Positions 18,438 to 28,053 of a stretch of 38,566 nucleotides of DNA are shown here, in pieces. Position 1 is the first letter of the stretch. Every line of letters starts with the position of its first letter. Made by a program: the position numbers and the translations under genes. The notes beneath the pieces were generated by a model. It did no database searches. It had not been told where the DNA came from and was given only the letters and a program-made list of their open reading frames with translations. This DNA is from Deltaproteobacteria bacterium (GTDB taxonomy: Bacteria > Desulfobacterota > Binatia > Binatales > Binataceae): NCBI GenBank assembly GCA_021780225.1, contig JAJXZF010000087.1, positions 1 to 38,566 on the forward strand, read 5' to 3'.

Positions 18438-19379
18438 TCAGACCCCGCCGGCCAGTACTTCCGCAAGTCCCTCTTTCTTGGTGACGCTGCGGGCCAATTG
18501 CTCTTTGACTTTCGCGCCGAGTTCGGCCGGATCCCAGAATTTCAGCGGTCCGGTTTGAGAAACCTTGGCGGCGCTATGCCAACCCTTCATCAGCCATACC
18601 GTGCCCAATCCTGCCCGGAAGACTTCGCCATGGACGTCCTTGGCGTCGTCGCTCGCCAGCCATGCCACCAGCGGAGCCACATGCGCGGGACTGTACTTGT
18701 CGACTTCGCCGGCCTTCGGTCCGGGCATCGTGGCGGCGGTTTGCGGCGTCGCATCGATCGTCAGACGGGTGCGCGCGACCGGCGCGATCGCATTGGCGGT
18801 GACGCCGTAACGCGCCATTTCGCGGTCCACGATTATCGCAAACGTCGCGACCGCGGCTTTCGCCGTTCCGTAATTGCTTTGACCGGCGTTGCCGAGCAGG
18901 CCCGAATCGGAACTGGTGTTGATCAAGCGTCCATTCAGGAGGTTGCCGTTCTTGTGCTGTTCCCGCCAGTAGGAAGCGGCGTGCCGGGCAAGGTTGAATG
19001 TGCCCTTAAGATGTACGGCCAGCACGGCGTCGAAATCCTCTTCGCTCATGTTGAAGATCATGCGGTCGCGCAGGATTCCGGCGTTGTTCACCACGATATT
19101 CAGCTTGCCGAAATTGTCGATCGCGCATTCGAGAATCCGCTTCGCGGACTTGAAATCGGAAACGCTCTCGAAATTGGCGACCGCTTCACCGCCCGCCGCG
19201 CGAATTTCTTTTACGACTTCTTCGGCCGGCGAGCGGGACTGGCCGGTGCCGTCGAAATGGCCGCCGAGGTCGTTGACGACCACTTTGGCGCCCTGCTTCG
19301 CCATCAGCAGCGCTTCTTCCTTGCCGATACCGCGGCCGGCGCCTGTGATCACCGCAACCTTTCCTTCCAGTAATGCCAT
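18438..19379 (-). CDS. SDR family dehydrogenase, MFE2-type 3-hydroxyacyl-CoA dehydrogenase-like
   Basis: This 313-residue NAD(P)-dependent short-chain dehydrogenase/reductase has cofactor motif TGAGRGIG at 12-19, NNAG at 98-101 and catalytic Ser157, Tyr170 and Lys174. The sequences VVVNDLGG, NNAGILRDR and APLVAWL closely match the (3R)-hydroxyacyl-CoA dehydrogenase part of peroxisomal multifunctional enzyme 2. A role in beta-oxidation or in steroid/fatty acyl-CoA metabolism is therefore likely. It is longer than a typical 250-residue FabG owing to a C-terminal extension (about 255-313), also seen in MFE2. The ATG at 19379 has GGAAG about 8 nt upstream. It heads the minus-strand group SDR, phosphatase, CoA-binding protein, Nudix. 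Confidence 0.9.
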   Translation of the reverse strand: MALLEGKVAVITGAGRGIGKEEALLMAKQGAKVVVNDLGGHFDGTGQSRSPAEEVVKEIRAAGGEAVANFESVSDFKSAKRILECAIDNFGKLNIVVNNAGILRDRMIFNMSEEDFDAVLAVHLKGTFNLARHAASYWREQHKNGNLLNGRLINTSSDSGLLGNAGQSNYGTAKAAVATFAIIVDREMARYGVTANAIAPVARTRLTIDATPQTAATMPGPKAGEVDKYSPAHVAPLVAWLASDDAKDVHGEVFRAGLGTVWLMKGWHSAAKVSQTGPLKFWDPAELGAKVKEQLARSVTKKEGLAEVLAGGV

Positions 19380-19631
19380 CGTGAACGCTTCCTTCTTGGA
19401 GTTCTATTTTTATTTCGTTGCGCGCCAACCGCTGCCGCGGCATGCGCCGCTGTCGCCAAGGCTCTCTCCGGAGCGCCATCCGAGTTTGTCCCGACCATTC
19501 TAGAGAAGCCGGGAATCGGCCGCGCCGCCGGACACCGGCGCTTCAGCGCATGCGCTTCGCGCAAACGTATCAAATCTGGATAAACCCGCCCGCCATCCAA
19601 AGTCAAGCTGGGGTCACGCGCCAAATCTGCG

Positions 19632-19669
19632 CTGACAAGCCAAGCCTCGCTAGGGCGTCGCCGCCCCAC
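19632..19669. repeat. 38-bp interspersed repeat, copy 1
   Basis: This copy begins CTGACAAGCC and ends GCCGCCCCAC, and differs from copy 2 at one base. The 3' half folds into a short GC hairpin (GGGCG / CGCCC around TCGC). The two copies start 78 bp apart. Confidence 0.85.
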
Positions 19670-19709
19670 CTTGCCGGACTATCGGGCGGCGTTCGATGCG
19701 GCGTCTAAA

Positions 19710-19747
19710 CTGACAAGCCAAGCCTCGCTGGGGCGTCGCCGCCCCAC
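19710..19747. repeat. 38-bp interspersed repeat, copy 2
   Basis: This copy matches copy 1 at 37 of 38 bases. The difference extends the hairpin to six pairs (GGGGCG / CGCCCC around TCGC). It looks like a REP-type palindromic element that may occur elsewhere in the genome. Confidence 0.85.
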
Positions 19748-19934
19748 TGACCCCTCTGAATTCACATATCTAACTGAGAAGAACGGCTTCATAGGGAGAT
19801 TAAGAAAGCGACAATACTCAATGATTCGTTCAATATTTCCCTAATAATCCATCAGATTTGCCGCTTTCGTCTATCATTATTTTTTCGTCAAAATTTCGGC
19901 ATCATAAATGCTCACTAAATCCAAAAGCATAATT

Positions 19935-19980
19935 GCGACGGCTGGAACAGTTTCTCCAGTATTGCAGGCAAACCCGTCGC
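19935..19980 (+). promoter_or_regulatory. Possible structured mRNA leader
   Basis: A 7-bp outer stem (GCGACGG at 19935-19941 with CCGTCGC at 19974-19980) encloses a 5-bp hairpin (CTGGA at 19942-19946 with TCCAG at 19955-19959). The unpaired part contains GGCAAAC. It ends 10 nt before the ribosome site of the secreted repeat protein, so it could affect translation. I do not recognise a known riboswitch. Confidence 0.35.
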
Positions 19981-20003
19981 CGATTTGCTGAAAGGATTTG
20001 GAT

Positions 20004-21632
20004 ATGCTTCTTCATTGTGTCCATCCATCCTCTCGCAGGACGCTGTTGACCATCAGCGCAATCTTGGTTGGAGCCCTCGTGGGTTCGCGGCCCGCTTTGG
20101 CTCAGGACAACCCAGCCGCATCCTCGTCAGATGCAGTAAAGGTTCTCAAGTGGAAGACGGTCGTAAATATCGCCGACTCGATTCCCGGAACCGAGACGCC
20201 GTTCAGCAGCTTCAATCAGCCGTCAATCAATAACCGCGGGCTGGTAGTGTTTCGCGGCCGCAGCAAGGGGCCGTCACAACCGATTCGCGGCATCTTCGTG
20301 CGAGACGTCACTCGTTCCAAGGCGCCTATAACGACGATCGCTGACACAAATACGGCCGTACCCGCACCGAACAACACCGGCGCGTCATTTAACGAGACGC
20401 CGGCCTTCCCGCGAATCCCGTTCGGTTCGGACGCGGTGGCGTTCAGGGGAGTCTCTCAGCCGGTTTATGAGTACACGCTGCCGGACGGAACGGACACGAA
20501 GATCGGCACCGCCGGCGTATATATGGTCAATATCTTTCAGAAAAAAACTCTGGTAACGGCGGCCAGCCAATTGGGAGTTGCGCCTGGATTTGAATATTTC
20601 GAGGTTCCCGGCGCCAGCGTTCCCGCCACCAAATTCGATCAATTTCCGGGCGCGCCATCGCCGGCTTACGACAAGATCGTATTTAAGGGAAATTATACCG
20701 ACAACGGCGTCTCAAAGACGGGCGTGTACTATCGCAACATCCGCAACGCGAAAAATCCGCACGCGGTCGTGTTGATCGCGAATTCAGACACGGTTATTCC
20801 GAACCAATCGGACACCAAAATTACTTTCGGTTCAACCGCACCGCCAAGCTCCTATAGTCTCAACATGGTGTTTCTCGGCGTCGATAACGAAGATGCGCCG
20901 ACGATGGGCGGCATTTACCTGTCGAAATTGGTCCAGCAGCCGAAGCTGATCACACTTGTGGCGTTGGGCGCGCCAGTGCCAGGAATCGAGGGAGAAACGA
21001 TCAACCGCCTTGGCGAAGCGATTTCTTTTAATGGTCGCTATATCGCCTTTTGGGGCGCGTGGGGAACGGCAACTCAGACCGTCACGCTGACCTGTCCGAC
21101 GGATGGCAACGCCGATCTCATCAAGTACTGCAATCAGCAATATCCGGGCGGCGTCACCACTGTCGATGAACCGGCAAATCAGGGCATTTTCGTCACCAAT
21201 ATCGTTACCAAAAAGACCAAGTTGGTCGCGATGACGGGAGCCGACAATTTCGCCGATTTTCTCTATTGGACCTATTCCGGCCGGCCACCCGGTTCGAGCG
21301 ATACGGACGACTACGAACCTCCGCGTTGGCGCTCGGCGGCTTTTGCCGCGGGTTACGGCCAAAAGACGGCCTTCAAGGGAACCAAAGCGGACGGAACGGT
21401 CGGAATCTATCTGGCGACCGGCGCAAAGCCTTCGCTGGACGCGCATCAGACGATTATCGACACGACCACCGACGGCACGACAATTGACCCGGAAGCGCCG
21501 TCTGGCGTGGCCGTGACCGCCGTCGGAATCGAGCGCGACGGCTTCCGTAACGGGCGGCTGGCGATCAATGCGAGCATGGCGAACGCCGACGCCACGCTGT
21601 CTTGGGCCGGGATCTATGTCGCCCACCCATGA
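20004..21632 (+). CDS. Secreted protein with seven FxG...GIY-type repeats (beta-propeller-like)
   Basis: This 542-residue protein has a signal peptide: after MLLHCVHPSSRR comes a hydrophobic stretch (LLTISAILVGALVG) and a likely cleavage site in PALA-QDN. I do not recognise a specific function. The mature part repeats a pattern of 60-80 residues, each unit with a strand like VVFRG or IVFKG and, 10-50 residues later, GIFVRD, GVYMVN, GVYYRN, GIYLSK, GIFVTN, GIYLAT or GIYVAH. Seven such pairs suggest a seven-bladed propeller or similar closed repeat fold. No catalytic motif, PEP-CTERM or LPXTG tail is seen, so it is probably periplasmic or released. I chose the ATG at 20004 because AAAGGA lies 7 nt upstream. 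Base composition is less GC-rich than in neighbouring genes, possibly a sign of transfer. It is a single-gene unit with its own terminator. Confidence 0.78.
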   Translation: MLLHCVHPSSRRTLLTISAILVGALVGSRPALAQDNPAASSSDAVKVLKWKTVVNIADSIPGTETPFSSFNQPSINNRGLVVFRGRSKGPSQPIRGIFVRDVTRSKAPITTIADTNTAVPAPNNTGASFNETPAFPRIPFGSDAVAFRGVSQPVYEYTLPDGTDTKIGTAGVYMVNIFQKKTLVTAASQLGVAPGFEYFEVPGASVPATKFDQFPGAPSPAYDKIVFKGNYTDNGVSKTGVYYRNIRNAKNPHAVVLIANSDTVIPNQSDTKITFGSTAPPSSYSLNMVFLGVDNEDAPTMGGIYLSKLVQQPKLITLVALGAPVPGIEGETINRLGEAISFNGRYIAFWGAWGTATQTVTLTCPTDGNADLIKYCNQQYPGGVTTVDEPANQGIFVTNIVTKKTKLVAMTGADNFADFLYWTYSGRPPGSSDTDDYEPPRWRSAAFAAGYGQKTAFKGTKADGTVGIYLATGAKPSLDAHQTIIDTTTDGTTIDPEAPSGVAVTAVGIERDGFRNGRLAINASMANADATLSWAGIYVAHP

Positions 21633-21680
21633 CGCGCCGACCAGCGGCGACTCCTAACCAGACGCCGCGGCAGCAATACC

Positions 21681-21719
21681 AATTCGAGCGCCTCCATTCC
21701 GGGGGCGCTCGAATTTCTT
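21681..21719 (+). terminator. Rho-independent-type terminator after the repeat protein gene
   Basis: A perfect 12-bp inverted repeat (AATTCGAGCGCC / GGCGCTCGAATT) with an 11-nt loop is followed by TCTTC. The T-rich tail is short, but the stem is the strongest in this part of the window and lies 48 nt after the stop codon. Confidence 0.65.
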
Positions 21720-21837
21720 CGGCGCGCATTTTCCCGATCAGGCGCGACGGAGTGAACCCATTGAGATTCGAGGTAAATGATCCGAGTTCCGCAGCGAATT
21801 TGCAGGGATGTAACTAACGGCGCTCCAAGAATCCTAC

Positions 21838-21864
21838 TTGACAGCGACGCTGGCGCCATAGCAT
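21838..21864 (+). promoter_or_regulatory. Putative promoter of the ExbB-ExbD-vWA operon
   Basis: A consensus -35 box, TTGACA, at 21838-21843 is followed after 15 bp by TAGCAT, which has four of six -10 bases. The spacing is shorter than ideal. It lies about 70 nt before the ExbB start and downstream of the terminator of the preceding gene, where an operon promoter is expected. The rest of the 302-bp gap shows nothing else. Confidence 0.45.
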
Positions 21865-21934
21865 TTGAGCAAGCTTGAAGGCGGGACAGATCGCGCCCGC
21901 CGTGCAATTTCTACGCTTCGGGGACGATTGGGGA

Positions 21935-22576
21935 ATGCAAACGCAATTCAGCATTATCGCGATGATCATGCAGGGGTGGTACGCCACCTACCCGCTCCTG
22001 CTGATCTCGGTCGTATGCGTGACCGTAATTATCGAGCGGGTCTGGTCATTGTGGGGCCTGAGCGCGCGCGCCTCTCACGTCGCCGAGGGCCTGGTGGGTC
22101 TTTTGAACCAGGGCAAGTTCGACGAGGCGCTCGAACGGGTAAAAAGTCCCCAAAGCGCCGGCGAACGGGTCTTCCACGAATTGCTGACCGAGGCGCCGTC
22201 GGCCGACCGCGCCCGCCTGGAGGAAGTGGACGAAGAGCGGCGCTTCGCCGAACTGCTGCAATTGCGCGGCCTGATCTGGATACTGGCCACTTCCGGCGCA
22301 TCGGCGCCGTTTATCGGCCTGTTCGGCACCGTCGTCGGCATCCTGGCGGCGTTTCAATCGATGGCTATCATGGGCACGGGCGGCTTTTCGGTCGTCGCCG
22401 CCGGCATTTCGGAAGCGTTGATTTCGACCGCTCTGGGCCTGGCGGTCGCGATTATCGCGGTCATTTTCTACAACTACCTTTCGCAGAAGATCGAACGGAT
22501 CAACGCGACCATCCATATCTGCGCCGCGCGTCTGATCGACGCCGCACTGCGGGGACAACGCGCGAATGGCAATTAA
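21935..22576 (+). CDS. ExbB/TolQ/MotA-family proton channel protein
   Basis: This 213-residue inner-membrane protein has the ExbB layout: helix 1 at about 18-40, a cytoplasmic charged region (about 44-112), helix 2 at about 114-143 and helix 3 at about 152-180. Family hallmarks are GLFGTVVGI with Thr132 and SEALISTALGL with Glu160 and Thr165, which line the proton path. It would form the pentameric ring of a proton-motive-force-driven motor. The ATG at 21935 is preferred; TTG at 21875 or GTG at 21902 would extend the N-terminus without family support. The stop overlaps the start of the first ExbD gene by 11 nt, so translation is coupled. Its effector is probably the vWA protein three genes downstream rather than TonB or TolA. 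Confidence 0.92.
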   Translation: MQTQFSIIAMIMQGWYATYPLLLISVVCVTVIIERVWSLWGLSARASHVAEGLVGLLNQGKFDEALERVKSPQSAGERVFHELLTEAPSADRARLEEVDEERRFAELLQLRGLIWILATSGASAPFIGLFGTVVGILAAFQSMAIMGTGGFSVVAAGISEALISTALGLAVAIIAVIFYNYLSQKIERINATIHICAARLIDAALRGQRANGN

Positions 22577-23003
22577 CGCGCCGTCCGGCGGCAGCGGGAT
22601 GTTCTGGGAAATCAACATCACGCCGCTTACCGATATCTTTCTGGTCCTGCTGATCATTTTCATGGTCACGACTTCGGTCGCAGTCGAATCGGCGACGCAC
22701 GTCAATTTGCCCGATGCGACGAACACCTCGCCGGAAAACAAGGGCGTAATCGTCACTTACACCGCGAATCACGAATTGTTCGTCAATTCGAAGGACGTTC
22801 CGGAAAACGATCTGCAAGAGGCGCTCGGCGACGCGCTCAGCCGGGTGGATGTTAAGACCGTGATTTTTCAGGGCGATCGGACCGTGATACTTGGCGACGT
22901 GGCGCGAATTCTCGACGTCGCGAAGGCGGCGGGCGCAACCCAAATCGCGATCGCGGCCAAGCGCGTGACGAATCTTCCGCCGCTGCCGCAAGCCGGCGGC
23001 TGA
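22566..23003 (+). CDS. ExbD/TolR-family protein, copy 1
   Basis: This 145-residue protein has a single membrane helix. The N-terminal cytoplasmic tail is followed by INITPLTDIFLVLLIIFMV, with Asp23 at the position of the protonated Asp of ExbD, and a periplasmic domain (about 45-140) ending in ILDVAKAAGATQIAIAA, the usual ExbD fold. It forms the plug that sits inside the ExbB ring and couples proton flow to movement. Its start lies inside the end of the ExbB gene. The next gene encodes a second ExbD with the same core, so the operon provides two versions of this subunit. Confidence 0.93.
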   Translation: MAINAPSGGSGMFWEINITPLTDIFLVLLIIFMVTTSVAVESATHVNLPDATNTSPENKGVIVTYTANHELFVNSKDVPENDLQEALGDALSRVDVKTVIFQGDRTVILGDVARILDVAKAAGATQIAIAAKRVTNLPPLPQAGG

Positions 23004-23035
23004 CGCGACCGACGGGCGGATATAGAGCAATTTCG

Positions 23036-23548
23036 ATGGCGATTCAGACCGGCAACGGACAGGGCGGCATCTTCGCCTCGATCAACATCACGCCGCTGAC
23101 CGATATCTTTCTGGTGCTGCTGATCATTTTCATGGTCGCGACGGCGGTGACGATCGAATCGGCCGCACACGTCGATTTGCCGCAGATGCAACAGCAGCAG
23201 GCCAATCAGCCGAACAAGACCGTCACCGTCACCTATACCGCCGACCATCGCATATTCGTGAACCAGCAGCCGGTTATCGAGGGCGACCTCGGCGCGGCGA
23301 TTAAAGAGGCGCTCGGCAAATCGACCGACAAGGTGGTCGTCTTCGACGGCGACGCGCGGGTGATTTTGGGCGACATGGTGCGGATTCTCGATATCGCCAA
23401 GGGCGCTGGAGCGGAACGCGTCGCGCTCGCCGTGTCGGGCGAAGCGGGCGGCGCCGCGACCGAACCGGAACCGCCGGCGGCGCCGATGGCCGAGCCCGAG
23501 GCGCCTGCTCCGGAAGCGGTCGCGCCGGCCGAAGGCGGAATTCAATGA
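23036..23548 (+). CDS. ExbD/TolR-family protein, copy 2, with Pro/Ala/Glu tail
   Basis: This 170-residue paralogue of the preceding gene has the same membrane core (INITPLTDIFLVLLIIFMV, Asp23) and the same periplasmic fold. It differs by a Gln-rich insertion (MQQQQANQ, near 58) and by a C-terminal tail from about 140 rich in Pro, Glu and Ala (TEPEPPAAPMAEPEAP), which looks flexible and could span the periplasm or bind a partner. It starts with ATG 32 nt after copy 1. A tandem duplication followed by divergence is the simplest origin. Two different ExbD subunits could form a heterodimer in one motor, or serve alternative states; this is inference. Confidence 0.92.
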   Translation: MAIQTGNGQGGIFASINITPLTDIFLVLLIIFMVATAVTIESAAHVDLPQMQQQQANQPNKTVTVTYTADHRIFVNQQPVIEGDLGAAIKEALGKSTDKVVVFDGDARVILGDMVRILDIAKGAGAERVALAVSGEAGGAATEPEPPAAPMAEPEAPAPEAVAPAEGGIQ

Positions 23549-23627
23549 ATGCGCGCGCTGGCTGAATTTTTCGGCGCCGGGACGGGTCTAGTCCGAGTGG
23601 CAGTCGATTCGATTAAGGCGGGTTCAG

Positions 23628-24857
23628 GTGATTAGCCTCAAAATGGCCGCGATTTTGGCCGCATCGGTGGTGATCGTGGCGGTCGCGATCTACCTGCTGA
23701 TGGCGCGCAATCGGCGGTCGCTCGCCGAGGCGGCGGGAGAACCGGAGGAACGCTGGGCGGGGATGCGCAACGCGCTCCGTTTTATGGAAGGACCGCTGCC
23801 GATCTCGATCACGATCCACGTGCTGGTGCTGCTTTTCCTCTTCTGGGGCGTGCATTTCGAGGCGGCGCGCAACCTGATTACGGTAAATTTCGAATCCGGC
23901 GGGGGCGGAAACAAGAACGCCGGCGCCGAGTTGAAACAGCTCAATCTGCCCGAAATGAAAATGCCCGAGATGGCGGCGCCGATGCCGATCGCGCGGCCGG
24001 TCGTCGCCATCCACGGTTCGGAAGCGGTGGCCGAAGCGACGCATTACGTGCGCGAAATTTCGGGCGGCGCCGGAATCGGCATCGGCCGGGGCGGCGGCAT
24101 CGGCTCCGGTTACGGCGCGGGCCTCGGTTCGGGTTTCGGCGGCTTTATCAGCGGGCTGCGCAAAAGCGGACTCGACGTCGTTTTGATCATCGACGGCACC
24201 GGTTCGATGAAGCTGATTATCGACGACGTCAAGAACCGCATGAAACAACTGGTGCTCGCGATTCATCGCCTGGTGCCGACCGCGCGAATCGGGATCGTCG
24301 TCTTCGGCGGACGCGGCGAGCCGATCGAAGCGCAGCCGTTGACCATCTCGCCGGGGGTGATGATCCAGTTTCTGAACAACATCACGGCGCATAACGGCGG
24401 CGAATGGCAGGAAGACACGCTTGGCGCGATTCGCGCCGCCGTCGATCGGATGGAATGGCGGCCGTCGGCGCGCAAGGTGATCGTGCTGGTCGGCGACACG
24501 CCGCCGTTCGACGAGGATATGGGGCCGGTGATGTCGGAAATCACCAAGTTCCGGATAGAGAACGGAACCTTCAACACGGTCGATGTAACCAAGGAAGAGC
24601 ACGAGCGCTTCGTCGAAGAATGGGCCAAAAGCGAGGGCATCTCACCGGCGAAAATGCTGTCCCAACCGATGCCCGGCTTCTACATGCAGACCCAACATGC
24701 GTATCAGACGATGGCGAATGCGGGCGGCGGCACCTGGCGCAGCCTGCTGCACGACCAGCAAATCAATCGGCAAGTCCTGATTTTCGCCTTCGGACAGCAA
24801 TGGCAGCGCGAGGTCGCCGCCTTCACCACCGGCATCCCCGCCGACAGCGATCCGTGA
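23628..24857 (+). CDS. Membrane-anchored vWA-domain protein with TonB/TolA-like SxxxH helix
   Basis: The protein has 409 residues. Helix 1 (about 6-25) is followed by a basic cytoplasmic loop (RNRR at 27-30) and helix 2 (about 57-76), which contains Ser60-x3-His64 in SITIH. SxxxH in the membrane helix is the signature by which TonB and TolA engage ExbB/TolQ. A linker follows with a Met/Pro-rich part and a Gly-rich run (about 147-173). The vWA domain (about 182-395) has a MIDAS variant, Asp189-x-Thr191-x-Ser193 (DGTGSM), and a GDTPPFDED loop. By the positive-inside rule the vWA domain should be periplasmic. The start is GTG at 23628, with AAGG about 9 nt upstream, 79 nt after ExbD copy 2. I infer that it is the effector moved by the ExbB/ExbD motor. 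Confidence 0.87.
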   Translation: MISLKMAAILAASVVIVAVAIYLLMARNRRSLAEAAGEPEERWAGMRNALRFMEGPLPISITIHVLVLLFLFWGVHFEAARNLITVNFESGGGGNKNAGAELKQLNLPEMKMPEMAAPMPIARPVVAIHGSEAVAEATHYVREISGGAGIGIGRGGGIGSGYGAGLGSGFGGFISGLRKSGLDVVLIIDGTGSMKLIIDDVKNRMKQLVLAIHRLVPTARIGIVVFGGRGEPIEAQPLTISPGVMIQFLNNITAHNGGEWQEDTLGAIRAAVDRMEWRPSARKVIVLVGDTPPFDEDMGPVMSEITKFRIENGTFNTVDVTKEEHERFVEEWAKSEGISPAKMLSQPMPGFYMQTQHAYQTMANAGGGTWRSLLHDQQINRQVLIFAFGQQWQREVAAFTTGIPADSDP

Positions 24858-24963: not shown

Positions 24964-25590
24964 CTAGAGCTCGCGCCGGCCGCTGATCGCGCTGGTGAGC
25001 GTGGCGGAGTCGCTGTATTCGAGGTCGCCGCCGGCGGGAAGTCCGCGCGCCAGACGGCTCGCTTTGACGCCGAGCGGCTTCAGCGTGCGCGCCAGGTAAA
25101 GCGCGGTCGCCTCGCCCTCGACGGTGGCGTTGGTCGCGATGATGATTTCGCGCACGGCGGCGTCATCGCCCCGCACGCGGGCGATCAATTCCGCGATTTT
25201 GATATCGTCGGGTCCAATTCCGTCGAGCGGCGCGATCGCGCCATGCAGAACGTGATAGACGCCGGCGAAGGTGCGCGCCCGTTCGATCGCCATCAGATCG
25301 GCCGGCCCTTCGACCACGCAAATTAAATCGCGCTCGCGGTCCGGGTCGGCGCAAATCGGACAGCGCGGGGCGTCCGACAGGCCAAAACATTCGCCGCACA
25401 GGCCGACCCGCTCTTTCATCTCGAGCAGCGCCTCGGCCAGCGCGATTACCTCGTCGCGCGGGCGGTTGAGCAAGTTGAAGGCGAGCCGCGAGGCGGTTTT
25501 TTCGCCGATTCCGGGCAGTCGCGACAGCTCCTTCACCAGCCGGGTCATCGCCGGCGGCAGGCCGTCGTTGCGTTTGAGGTTTTCAGCCAT
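24964..25590 (-). CDS. recR: Recombination mediator RecR
   Basis: This 208-residue RecR helps load RecA on gapped DNA as part of the RecFOR pathway. The N-terminal helix-hairpin-helix contains LSRLPGIGEKTASRLAF (about 22-38). The zinc finger has Cys65, Cys68, Cys77 and Cys80. The Toprim domain begins at ICVVEGPADL (about 90-99) and continues with EIIIATNATVEGEATALYL and SRLARGLPAGGDLEYSD. Length and motif order are normal. It starts with ATG 26 nt after ybaB, completing the common dnaX-ybaB-recR cluster. Confidence 0.97.
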   Translation of the reverse strand: MAENLKRNDGLPPAMTRLVKELSRLPGIGEKTASRLAFNLLNRPRDEVIALAEALLEMKERVGLCGECFGLSDAPRCPICADPDRERDLICVVEGPADLMAIERARTFAGVYHVLHGAIAPLDGIGPDDIKIAELIARVRGDDAAVREIIIATNATVEGEATALYLARTLKPLGVKASRLARGLPAGGDLEYSDSATLTSAISGRREL

Positions 25591-25990: not shown

Positions 25991-27904
25991 CTATGGTTTG
26001 CGCGACGCGGCCGCAGATGGAGCGGCGGCGGAGCCGGTGGCGCGCACTTCGACGAGACGCGCCTGAAATTCATCGAAAATCCGGCGCACGACCGGATCCG
26101 CATAGACCGACTGGCGCAATTCGGCGGCGGTCGGCGCCGACGACGTAACGCTCGCGGCGGCAACGTCCGCGGATTCGCCATTTGGCGTCGCGGATGAGGA
26201 CTCATCCGGTCCGCCGAGCGGCGCCGCGGCTTCCGCGACGATCGCTAGCGCCGAATTCCCGCTCGGCGGCGATTGCGCGCCGGGCGCGCCGACTTCGGCC
26301 CGAATTTTCCGGCCGTAGAGCTCAGTGGCCAGCTCGGCGATTTCGTTGCGCTTGTCGGTCAGGTAGCGAACATAAATGTCGTTGCGCGGCGCGACCATCA
26401 GCAGATCGCCGTCAAGATGGAGGGTCGCGCCCTGTTCCATGAATCCGGCCAGCGCGGCCCGCCGGCCGCGGATGAATTCGCGCAAATCCGGAAGGTCCGG
26501 CGTGGTCGCGGCAGACGGCGCCGCGGTCGCAGCCATATTTTGGCGCGGCGGCGCAGGCGGCTCGCGGCGGCGCGGGGCGTCGGCTTTGACTTCACCCTCG
26601 ACGCGGATTTTGCGCGCCGGCGCCGGAGTAAAAACCGTTTCGGCCGAGGCGCCAGTGGCGCCGCGCGGCCCGGACGATCCCGAGACTGTTCCGCCGGACG
26701 CGAGCGGCGCCGATCGTGGCGTCGATTGTGGAGACGAGCCGCCGCCGTTGCCGCCGCGGATAGCGCGCATCAGTTCGTCCGCGTCGAGCACCGGCGCCAG
26801 CGACGCCATTCGGATGATCGCCATTTCCAAGATCAATTCAGGATAGGGCGAGCGGATGATGCGCTCCTGCGCGTCGGCCATCAGCCGGAACAGGCGCATC
26901 AGGTCGCGGCCGCTCGGAGCGGACGCAAGCCGCTTCAACTCCTCGGCTTCCTGATCGGGCAGATCGGCGAGCGGGCTTTCGCCGCCGCTGCCGCCGGGAA
27001 GTTTCGCGACGGCGAGATTGCGCAACACCTCAAGCAAGTCGCGCCCGAGCGATTCGAGATTGGCGCCGCGCCGATGAAGCTCGCGGACCGCGCCGAGCGC
27101 GGCGGCGGCGTCATGCGCCAAAACCGCCTCGACGGTTTGGAAGACCCGGCCGCGGCTGGCGACGCCGAGTATCGACGCGACCTCGGTTTCCGTGACCTTG
27201 CCGTCGAGCGAGGCGATCGCGGTTTCGAGCATCCGCTCGGCGTCGCGCATGCTGCCGCCGGCTTCGCGCGCGAGCAGACGCAGGGCCGCAGGCTCGGCCG
27301 CGACCGTTTCGCGCGACGCCAGCTCGGTCAGCCGATTGACGATCGCGGCGAACGGAATGCGCCGGAAGTCATAACGCTGCAGCCGCGACAGGATGGTCTC
27401 GGGCATCTTCTGCGGCTCGGTGGTCGCCAGGATGAACTTGACGTGGGGCGGCGGCTCTTCGAGCGTCTTCAGCAGCGCATTGAAGGCTTGATCGGTGAGC
27501 TGATGCGCCTCGTCGATGATGTAAACCTTGAAGCGATCGCGGGCGGGCCGATAACTCAGGTTTTCGATAATCGCGCGGGCGTCGTCGATTTTGCGGTAGG
27601 TGGCGCCGTCGATTTCAACCACGTCGAGCGCGGCGCCGGCGCGAATCTCGACGCAGGCGGCGCATGTGCCGCACGGCTCGGGCGTCGGGCCTTCGGCGCA
27701 GTTGAGGCATCGCGCCAGAATCCGCGCCGCCGTCGTCTTGCCGACGCCGCGGATACCGGTGAAGAGAAACGCGTGCGCGATCCGGCCGCTCTTGAGCGCC
27801 TGCATCAAAGTGCGGGTGACATGCTCCTGGCCGACCAGCTCGCTGAAGCGTTCCGGACGCCATTTGCGGGCGAGCACCAGATGTGAGGACGGATTCGCGG
27901 CCAT
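25991..27904 (-). CDS. dnaX: DNA polymerase III subunit gamma/tau
   Basis: This 637-residue clamp-loader ATPase has Walker A GIRGVGKT (50-57), a zinc module with Cys69, Cys78, Cys81 and Cys84, Walker B DEAH (130-133), sensor 1 ATTEPQKMP and sensor 2 GGSMRDAERML. Domain III follows, then a Pro/Ala/Gly-rich linker (about 385-475) and a C-terminal tau-like domain. I see no clear slippery A-run with which to make a short gamma form by frameshift. It starts with ATG at 27904, only 18 nt after the 3' end of the SRP RNA, and has no strong ribosome site. It is the first protein gene of the dnaX-ybaB-recR cluster. Confidence 0.96.
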   Translation of the reverse strand: MAANPSSHLVLARKWRPERFSELVGQEHVTRTLMQALKSGRIAHAFLFTGIRGVGKTTAARILARCLNCAEGPTPEPCGTCAACVEIRAGAALDVVEIDGATYRKIDDARAIIENLSYRPARDRFKVYIIDEAHQLTDQAFNALLKTLEEPPPHVKFILATTEPQKMPETILSRLQRYDFRRIPFAAIVNRLTELASRETVAAEPAALRLLAREAGGSMRDAERMLETAIASLDGKVTETEVASILGVASRGRVFQTVEAVLAHDAAAALGAVRELHRRGANLESLGRDLLEVLRNLAVAKLPGGSGGESPLADLPDQEAEELKRLASAPSGRDLMRLFRLMADAQERIIRSPYPELILEMAIIRMASLAPVLDADELMRAIRGGNGGGSSPQSTPRSAPLASGGTVSGSSGPRGATGASAETVFTPAPARKIRVEGEVKADAPRRREPPAPPRQNMAATAAPSAATTPDLPDLREFIRGRRAALAGFMEQGATLHLDGDLLMVAPRNDIYVRYLTDKRNEIAELATELYGRKIRAEVGAPGAQSPPSGNSALAIVAEAAAPLGGPDESSSATPNGESADVAAASVTSSAPTAAELRQSVYADPVVRRIFDEFQARLVEVRATGSAAAPSAAASRKP

Positions 27905-27922: not shown

Positions 27923-28053
27923 GACTGCCCGTCGAATGATAGCCAGGCGCCCCTGCGGCACAGGGTGACAGCCGGTACCGTTGCTTCCTTCCGGACCTGG
28001 CGGGGTTCGCGGCCTTCCCTTGCGCAGGACCCGGCTATCAGCGGCGGGCAGTC
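27923..28053 (-). ncRNA. ffs: Signal recognition particle RNA (4.5S type)
   Basis: On the minus strand the conserved domain IV core GGTCCGGAAGGAAGCA (plus-strand complement at 27982-27997) is present, with the GGAA tetraloop and the asymmetric bulge bound by Ffh. The outer ends pair: GACTGCCCG at the 5' end with CGGGCAGTC at the 3' end, and GATAGCC with GGCTATC further in. This gives the expected single long hairpin of about 131 nt. The Alu-type domain of Firmicutes is absent, so this is the short form with a somewhat extended stem. Its position directly upstream of dnaX is common in bacteria. The ends are set by the pairing and may be off by several nt. Confidence 0.93.

Follow-up and report, generated by a model that had tools for sequence, protein, structure and literature searches.

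The protein described here lies closest to two database families that carry no function, DUF7453 (PF24251) and the NxxGxxAF repeat (TIGR05002). No paper on NxxGxxAF, DUF7453, or 'choice-of-anchor tandem repeat' was found in the open literature searched. As its family name 'choice-of-anchor' suggests, TIGR05002 presumably has a C-terminal sorting anchor of some kind, and the DUF7453 member L129 ends in a tail that we take to be PEP-CTERM-like. S9 peptidases, whose propellers are the best structural neighbors of the protein, carry a catalytic alpha/beta-hydrolase domain beside the propeller.

In the window (the whole stretch of 38,566 nucleotides that was analyzed), an open reading frame of 542 amino acids starts with an ATG at position 20004, and its stop codon ends at 21632. 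The gene and its 5' portion are as follows:

20004–21632, plus strand: gene of a secreted, DUF7453-related, predicted propeller protein of 542 amino acids (open reading frame, family, alignment, model)
20004–20102, plus strand: signal peptide, residues 1–33, cleavage site ALA↓Q (read by eye)

A first-pass annotation made from the sequence had described a secreted protein of unknown function. The function label still applies, although a marginal family match exists. A profile search placed the whole protein just above the curated cut-off of PF24251 (hmmscan, 27.4 versus 26.2 bits), with a match to profile positions 36–294 of 460; in a six-frame search of the whole genome, the same copy scored 21.6 bits and thus fell below the cut-off. 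For TIGR05002, the score of 30.2 bits stayed under the cut-off of 50, and the first repeat unit matched positions 1–54 of 57 (E 3.3e-7). At E ≤ 0.01, PF24251 matches 35 and TIGR05002 37 of the 76 rows of the alignment of relatives. We class the window protein at the edge of DUF7453 and treat the 76 rows as an uncurated subfamily of their own. This subfamily differs from DUF7453 in its own motifs (KFDxFPG, FGSTAPPSA, DNE, FWGAWG, RWRS, and ERDGFR) and in an insert with a cysteine pair in the fifth blade. The unit grammar of TIGR05002, i.e., an NxxG turn, a strand ending in F, and then G[IV][FY], can be recognized by eye. A comparison of the subfamily profile with the canonical NxxGxxAF protein L127 gave 12.5% over 61 columns, and the sequence link to NxxGxxAF outside unit 1 appears weak.

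The N-terminus agrees with the signal peptide noted in the first-pass annotation: residues 1–33 comprise, by eye, the hydrophobic stretch TLLTISAILVGALVG followed by ALA↓Q. The sequence SRRTLLT within it bears a weak likeness, by eye, to a twin-arginine motif. A heuristic count of N-termini found a hydrophobic stretch in 64 of the 76 aligned rows, 52 of these with AxA, whereas a lipobox (6/76) and an RR motif (5/76) were rare. The window protein is very probably exported and would be cleaved by signal peptidase I. Its C-terminus, SWAGIYVAHP, extends four residues past the last GIY and has no hydrophobic tail by eye. No C-terminal anchor of the kind presumed for TIGR05002 was seen, and the protein lacks a PEP-CTERM-like tail such as that of L129.

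Repeat units and predicted fold

The seven units described earlier, each with an FRG/FKG/FWG strand and a GIY/GIF strand, were recovered by motif counts. FxG occurs in six of the seven units (FRG 83, FRG 147, FKG 227, FLG 290, FWG 349, FKG 457; INA takes its place in unit 7), and G[IV][FY] occurs in all seven (GIF 96, GVY 171, GVY 240, GIY 303, GIF 394, GIY 467, GIY 536), the two motifs alternating. None of 2000 shuffles of the same residues attained any of the three observed counts (six FxG, against a shuffle mean of 0.46; seven G[IV][FY], against 0.58; and six ordered pairs, against 0.12). When the units were compared as profiles, six of the 21 pairs exceeded 50% probability (1–3 96.8, 1–6 92.6, 2–3 84.6, 1–4 80.9, 3–6 63, and 3–4 58), against a maximum of 6.9% in 21 reversed controls. 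The pair 1–2 reached only 12.7%, and units 5 and 7 stayed below 10% with every other unit. These profiles link units 1, 2, 3, 4, and 6, and units 5 and 7 are too diverged for detection by sequence.

AlphaFold2 with the 76-row alignment gave an all-beta model with a mean pLDDT of 91.0 and a pTM of 0.87. In its strand list, residues 66–486 form six blades, and residues 503–541 form three further strands:

20148–20168, plus strand: N-terminal strand, residues 49–55 (KWKTVVN), putative outer strand of blade 7 (strand list)
20199–20345, plus strand: blade 1, residues 66–114, FRG/GIF (model, conservation, repeats)
20385–20567, plus strand: blade 2, residues 128–188, FRG/GVY (model, conservation, repeats)
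20634–20783, plus strand: blade 3, residues 211–260, FKGNY/GVY, with K228 and N230 invariant (alignment, model, conservation)
20847–20963, plus strand: blade 4, residues 282–320, FLG..DNE/GIY, with D294 and E296 invariant (alignment, model, conservation)
20997–21236, plus strand: blade 5, residues 332–411, FWGAWG/GIF, with the insert that carries Cys364 and Cys376 (model, conservation)
21264–21461, plus strand: blade 6, residues 421–486, RWRS/FKG/GIY (model, conservation, repeats)
21510–21626, plus strand: blade 7, three strands, residues 503–541, IERDGFR/GIY (model, conservation, repeats)

The strand order suggests that strand 49–55 completes blade 7 in a Velcro closure. This fits the likeness, by eye, of WKTVVNIADSIPG around this strand to the last strands of other units (TTIADTNTAVP, VLIANSDTVIP). 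Cys364 and Cys376 are both present in 74 of the 76 rows and probably form a disulfide. The mature protein would be a seven-bladed beta-propeller with a single disulfide, its ring closed by the N-terminal strand.

Structural neighbors of the model were ranked with VIA-align 2, run on the top chains from Foldseek. The first places are taken by propeller domains of S9 peptidases (8wt1_C, Z 22.6, rmsd 3.5, 309 residues aligned; 2gop_A, Z 21.9, rmsd 3.6, 291 residues aligned), at an identity of 7%–16%. WD40/G-beta propeller chains come next, with Z of 18.9–20.5 and about 285–300 residues for most of them. The model ranges aligned to PDB chains begin at residues 28–65 and extend up to 541–542. Foldseek itself returned 77 matches at E ≤ 0.001, which include prolyl peptidases, sialidases, and polysaccharide lyases; TM-scores by query length were low (0.14–0.39), and the rmsd was 8.5–25.6 among the best 50 of the 77. 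Repeats, strand list, and structural neighbors of the predicted model agree with seven four-stranded blades in a closed ring, and a seven-bladed propeller is very probably the fold of the protein. The propeller suggested in the first-pass annotation is in keeping with this prediction; a fold other than a closed repeat, which had been named as speaking against it, was not seen in the model.

The likeness to known propellers is one of structure. In contrast to the S9 peptidases, the window protein ends at its last blade and has no peptidase domain, and no peptidase in Pfam matched at E ≤ 1. WD40/G-beta propellers match over most of the model, but the protein considered here is an exported bacterial one and has no WD40 match in Pfam at E ≤ 1. 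Sialidases appear only as structural Foldseek rows, with no sialidase match in Pfam or NCBIfam at E ≤ 1. Searches of the PDB by sequence and by profile found no relative of solved structure. A chain of a putative sugar ABC transporter (E 0.0015 by sequence) was not recovered with the profile, and an LPXTG-site transpeptidase chain (E 0.18) was the sole profile match; both were taken as chance matches. Propellers resemble one another whatever their function.

For comparison, one canonical DUF7453 protein of the same class (L137, 449 amino acids, PF24251 65.9 bits) was modeled from nine sequences (pLDDT 86.8, pTM 0.82). Judged by strand order and shared neighbors, with the two models unsuperposed, this member has the architecture of the window protein: the model is all-beta, shares the top PDB neighbors, and likewise leaves an N-terminal strand and three C-terminal strands for the last blade. 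For the canonical model only, the matches included the secreted propeller lectins CV39L (6gxs_B, Z 20.2, rmsd 3.0, 277 residues aligned) and PLL3 (8q81, Z 18.9, rmsd 2.8, 246 residues aligned), which were counted in favor of a binding role. A predicted fold can thus be attached to the two function-free labels DUF7453 and NxxGxxAF repeat. The family is a widespread but uncharacterized one of propellers and represents no new kind of system.

Conserved residues, fused domains, and co-encoded partners

Thirty-seven columns are invariant in the 76 rows, among others R137, K228, N230, R244, D294, E296, E338, Q393, E438, W442, R443, D495, E510, and R515. Mean conservation is 0.58 for strands a and b, 0.57 for strand c, and 0.45 for strand d; the a–b turns reach 0.54, and the c–d loops are lowest (0.29). 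In six blades, polar positions conserved in at least 90% of the rows lie at or just past the end of strand b (R84/R86, R148, K228/N230, D294/E296, W350/W353, and K458); others are found in the d–a loops (N123/N124, E438, R441–R443, and D495). Further ones (Q72, S74, N76, R137, and E338) are located in a–b turns on the opposite side. Conserved polar residues make up 16 of 213 positions in the b–c and d–a loops and 6 of 83 in the a–b and c–d loops. Because this density is nearly equal on both faces, loop density alone singles out no one face.

The relatives comprise single-domain proteins and fusions, and seven of ten fusion or long relatives carry extra domains above the cut-off:

L017, L021, L027: TIG/CoaZ fusions, over the cut-off
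L009, L025, L032: Big_3_5 fusions, over the cut-off in L009 and L025, below it in L032
L076: FG-GAP fusion, over the cut-off
L078: fn3/Big_9 fusion, over the cut-off

The domain scan of L023 and L083 detected no further domain. A toxin-named Pfam row in the FG-GAP part of L076 (E 0.016) was below the cut-off and was put down to FG-GAP likeness. TIG/CoaZ, Big_3_5, fn3/Big_9, and FG-GAP domains are usual in secreted proteins, and the fusions were therefore counted in favor of export.

Two types of partner, which appear secreted by eye and show no BLAST similarity to each other, adjoin the propeller gene in some lineages. They account for 12 of 19 hand-picked neighbors and for clusters of seven and six loci in the clustering of neighbors:

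Upstream of the propeller gene, partner type A, secreted by eye: L013 6241–7800, L039 3–554, L050 6062–7834, L051 3–1463, L053 787–2142, L070 498–2198
Beside the propeller gene, partner type B, secreted by eye: L035 6514–7794, L045 1025–2293, L046 541–2007, L054 1–1047, L063 6328–7827, L075 9602–10900

Type A proteins have about 450–590 amino acids where complete, and DUF11 was just over the cut-off in one of three scanned. Type B, from bins labeled Nitrospirota and Proteobacteria, gave no Pfam match over the cut-off in the three proteins scanned. Such fusions and secreted neighbors are typical of extracellular modules for binding or catalysis.

The conserved charged and aromatic residues at the strand b ends and in the d–a loops may form a binding site, whose ligand would probably be a glycan or another polymer. 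We tentatively favor, at somewhat short of an even chance, an extracellular ligand-binding module rather than an enzyme or a scaffold. The main rival, in which the propeller serves as the scaffold of an extracellular enzyme such as a glycan lyase or a glycosidase-like hydrolase acting through the invariant Arg, Asp, and Glu, appears rather unlikely. It would account for the many invariant charged residues, and structural comparison offers candidates in the sialidases, PL24, and rhamnose–glucuronate lyases among the Foldseek rows and in the oligogalacturonate lyases matched by the canonical DUF7453 model (Z 20.6–20.7). However, His is absent from the 37 invariant columns, the likeness to enzymes is one of fold alone, at an identity of 6%–11%, and enzyme families of Pfam and NCBIfam gave neither a match over the cut-off for the window protein nor one at E ≤ 0.01 for the 76 rows. 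A structural or protein-binding scaffold of the surface that works with a co-secreted partner is unlikely. The adjoining genes of types A and B are what such a scaffold would have, but the window gene has no such neighbor, and no neighbor family recurs in more than eight loci, in gene calls that recover the gene of the family at 71 of the 80 loci. The invariant residues and the co-encoded partners are starting points for testing function.

Distribution of the subfamily and probable gain of the segment

A search of genome contigs gave 151 candidate stretches, of which 92 code for a relative; 80 loci were retained. The tree rows carry ten NCBI phylum labels; many rows are metagenome bins, for which the label may be imprecise. 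The subfamily profile found matches in 7 of 148 genomes of the class (including two weak ones at E about 2e-4 and two partial ones), in 3 of 41 of the family, the window's own included, and in one of seven of the genus, that of the window alone; DUF7453 as a whole is present in 45 of the 148 class genomes. In the tree, one group (SH-aLRT 95) unites the window protein, the G029 copy, and a tandem gene pair of a proteobacterial bin, and the copy of G017 falls within a clade of 15 rows mostly labeled Acidobacteriota. A single clade of the three family copies, the window's own and those from two further genera, was rejected (AU p 0.0005; the group was set by host family, but the test followed inspection of the tree). 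The contigs that carry the G029 and G017 copies measure 14 and 13 kb, respectively, and these copies may be mis-binned.

Two tandem copies of the propeller gene were observed in L016 (6026–9548), L020 (5128–9563), and L062 (5826–9731). They are sisters in the tree for L016 and L020 and belong to different branches for L062.

In the window, the gene lies on a segment of about 2.2 kb between a divergent SDR gene (18438–19379, minus strand) and exbB (21875–22576, plus strand), both named by reading of the sequence:

19608–21819, no strand: segment absent at the same site in genomes of the same genus (DNA similarity to G003/G004)
19632–19669, plus strand: first copy of a 38-nt direct repeat, with a GGGCG..CGCCC hairpin within by eye (repeat scan)
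19710–19747, plus strand: second copy of the 38-nt direct repeat (repeat scan, genome pattern search)
19760–20003, plus strand: AT-rich leader, GC 0.39 (composition)
21681–21715, plus strand: strong hairpin with a 15-bp stem and a short T run, likely a terminator (fold statistics)

The lower GC content that the first-pass annotation had seen by eye in the gene and its upstream gap was confirmed. With a GC of 0.576, the coding sequence is the lowest of 26 long open reading frames compared (others 0.587–0.681), and the gap is represented by the leader. The GC3 of 0.680 lies within the range of the others (0.573–0.823); only two are lower, both of which look by eye like wrong frames, and the neighbors have 0.739 (SDR) and 0.782 (exbB). 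Of 739 gene-length sliding windows, 28, some of them overlapping the gene, have a GC as low or lower. The shift in composition is real but mild.

In the leader, AAAGGA (19991–19996) reads like a ribosome-binding stretch. No sigma-70-like site was found there, and 19300–22000 contains two versus 1.5 in shuffles; the leader sequence had no match in any other genome of the genus. The two repeat copies are 97% alike. They were considered as a dispersed element, but a 36-nt pattern taken from them had, with up to three mismatches allowed, no occurrence elsewhere in the genome. The terminator hairpin described 3' of the gene was found (−29.6 kcal/mol, z −5.66), with a stem of 15 bp instead of the 12 bp given earlier. 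It was missed by a simple terminator scan because of its short T run, and its role as a terminator is accordingly putative; the four terminator-like sites in 19300–22000 are all on the minus strand, versus 3.6 in shuffles.

The SDR and exbB genes are adjacent and divergent in five of the six other genomes of the genus (G001, G002, G003, G004, and G006), where their protein matches lie 372–924 bp apart, compared with 2495 bp in the window; in G005, neither orthologue was found. DNA similarity to G003 and G004 extends to position 19607 and sets in again at 21826 for G003 and at 21820 for G004. The site holds 129 bp in G003, 124 bp in G004, 181 bp in G006, 621 bp in G001, and about 360 bp in the more diverged G002, so that 0.12–0.62 kb of other sequence stands at the orthologous site in all five genomes that keep both neighbors. 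A search of these five empty sites with the family profile found neither a copy nor a remnant. The segment seems to have taken the place of about 125 bp of resident sequence. In the tree of each flank, the window shares a clade with G003 and G004 (100/100), within which these two pair as sisters (95/96 and 99/98). The segment sits on a single contig between flanks that are native to the genus, which argues against contamination.

The flank trees call for either one gain on the branch of the window or about four losses. An ancestral origin of the gene in the genus with repeated later losses, the low GC stemming from its protein without any transfer, is very unlikely. The GC3 only mildly below that of the two neighbors would suit such a history, as would the unaligned 621 bp at the site in G001; yet about four separate losses, each free of remnants, would be needed, the family profile came back empty-handed from all five sites, and the G001 stretch is no more similar to the insert than shuffles are. 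Read by eye, this stretch (in L112) appeared to contain codons for LTWKTAVV, which resembles the beginning of the mature protein, but a short BLAST match there had an E of 0.20, and 38 of 100 shuffles attained the best local alignment score; the candidate remnant was dropped. The clean empty sites point to a recent gain. It is highly likely that the host gained the gene by horizontal transfer, which would have taken place after the split from its nearest sequenced relatives. The transfer suggested in the first-pass annotation agrees with the absence of the gene from the six other genomes of the genus and with an empty orthologous site in five of five, as well as with the separation of the family copies in the tree; the same locus with the same composition in all relatives, named there as the contrary outcome, was not seen.

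No tRNA was found in the window, and no target duplication was seen by eye. A tblastn search of plasmids and phages found no relative of the window protein, and none of 33 pattern stretches from viral contigs was confirmed as one. Nothing found marks the route by which the segment entered.

For the locus as a whole, the best explanation, an exported and transferred propeller binding module at the edge of DUF7453 and the NxxGxxAF-repeat proteins, is about evenly poised between holding and failing. It is possible, at a lower probability, that the distinct subfamily is an unknown extracellular enzyme or glycan receptor with its own invariant Arg, Lys, Asp, Glu, and Trp, repeatedly transferred over about ten phyla and working in some lineages with one of the two unrelated, co-encoded secreted partners.

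About 620 bp of unexplained sequence stand at the same intergenic site in G001 (L112, 1873–2493), with no likeness to the insert above chance, and the site between SDR and exbB may be a changeable one. Five of the six other genomes of the genus retain exbB. In the window, this gene opens a run (21875–24857) that reads as an ExbB-like gene, two ExbD-like genes, and a gene for a von Willebrand-type protein. Farther downstream, a small signal recognition particle RNA (27938–28036, minus strand) adjoins, by eye, dnaX-like (25991–27904) and recR-like (24964–25590) genes.
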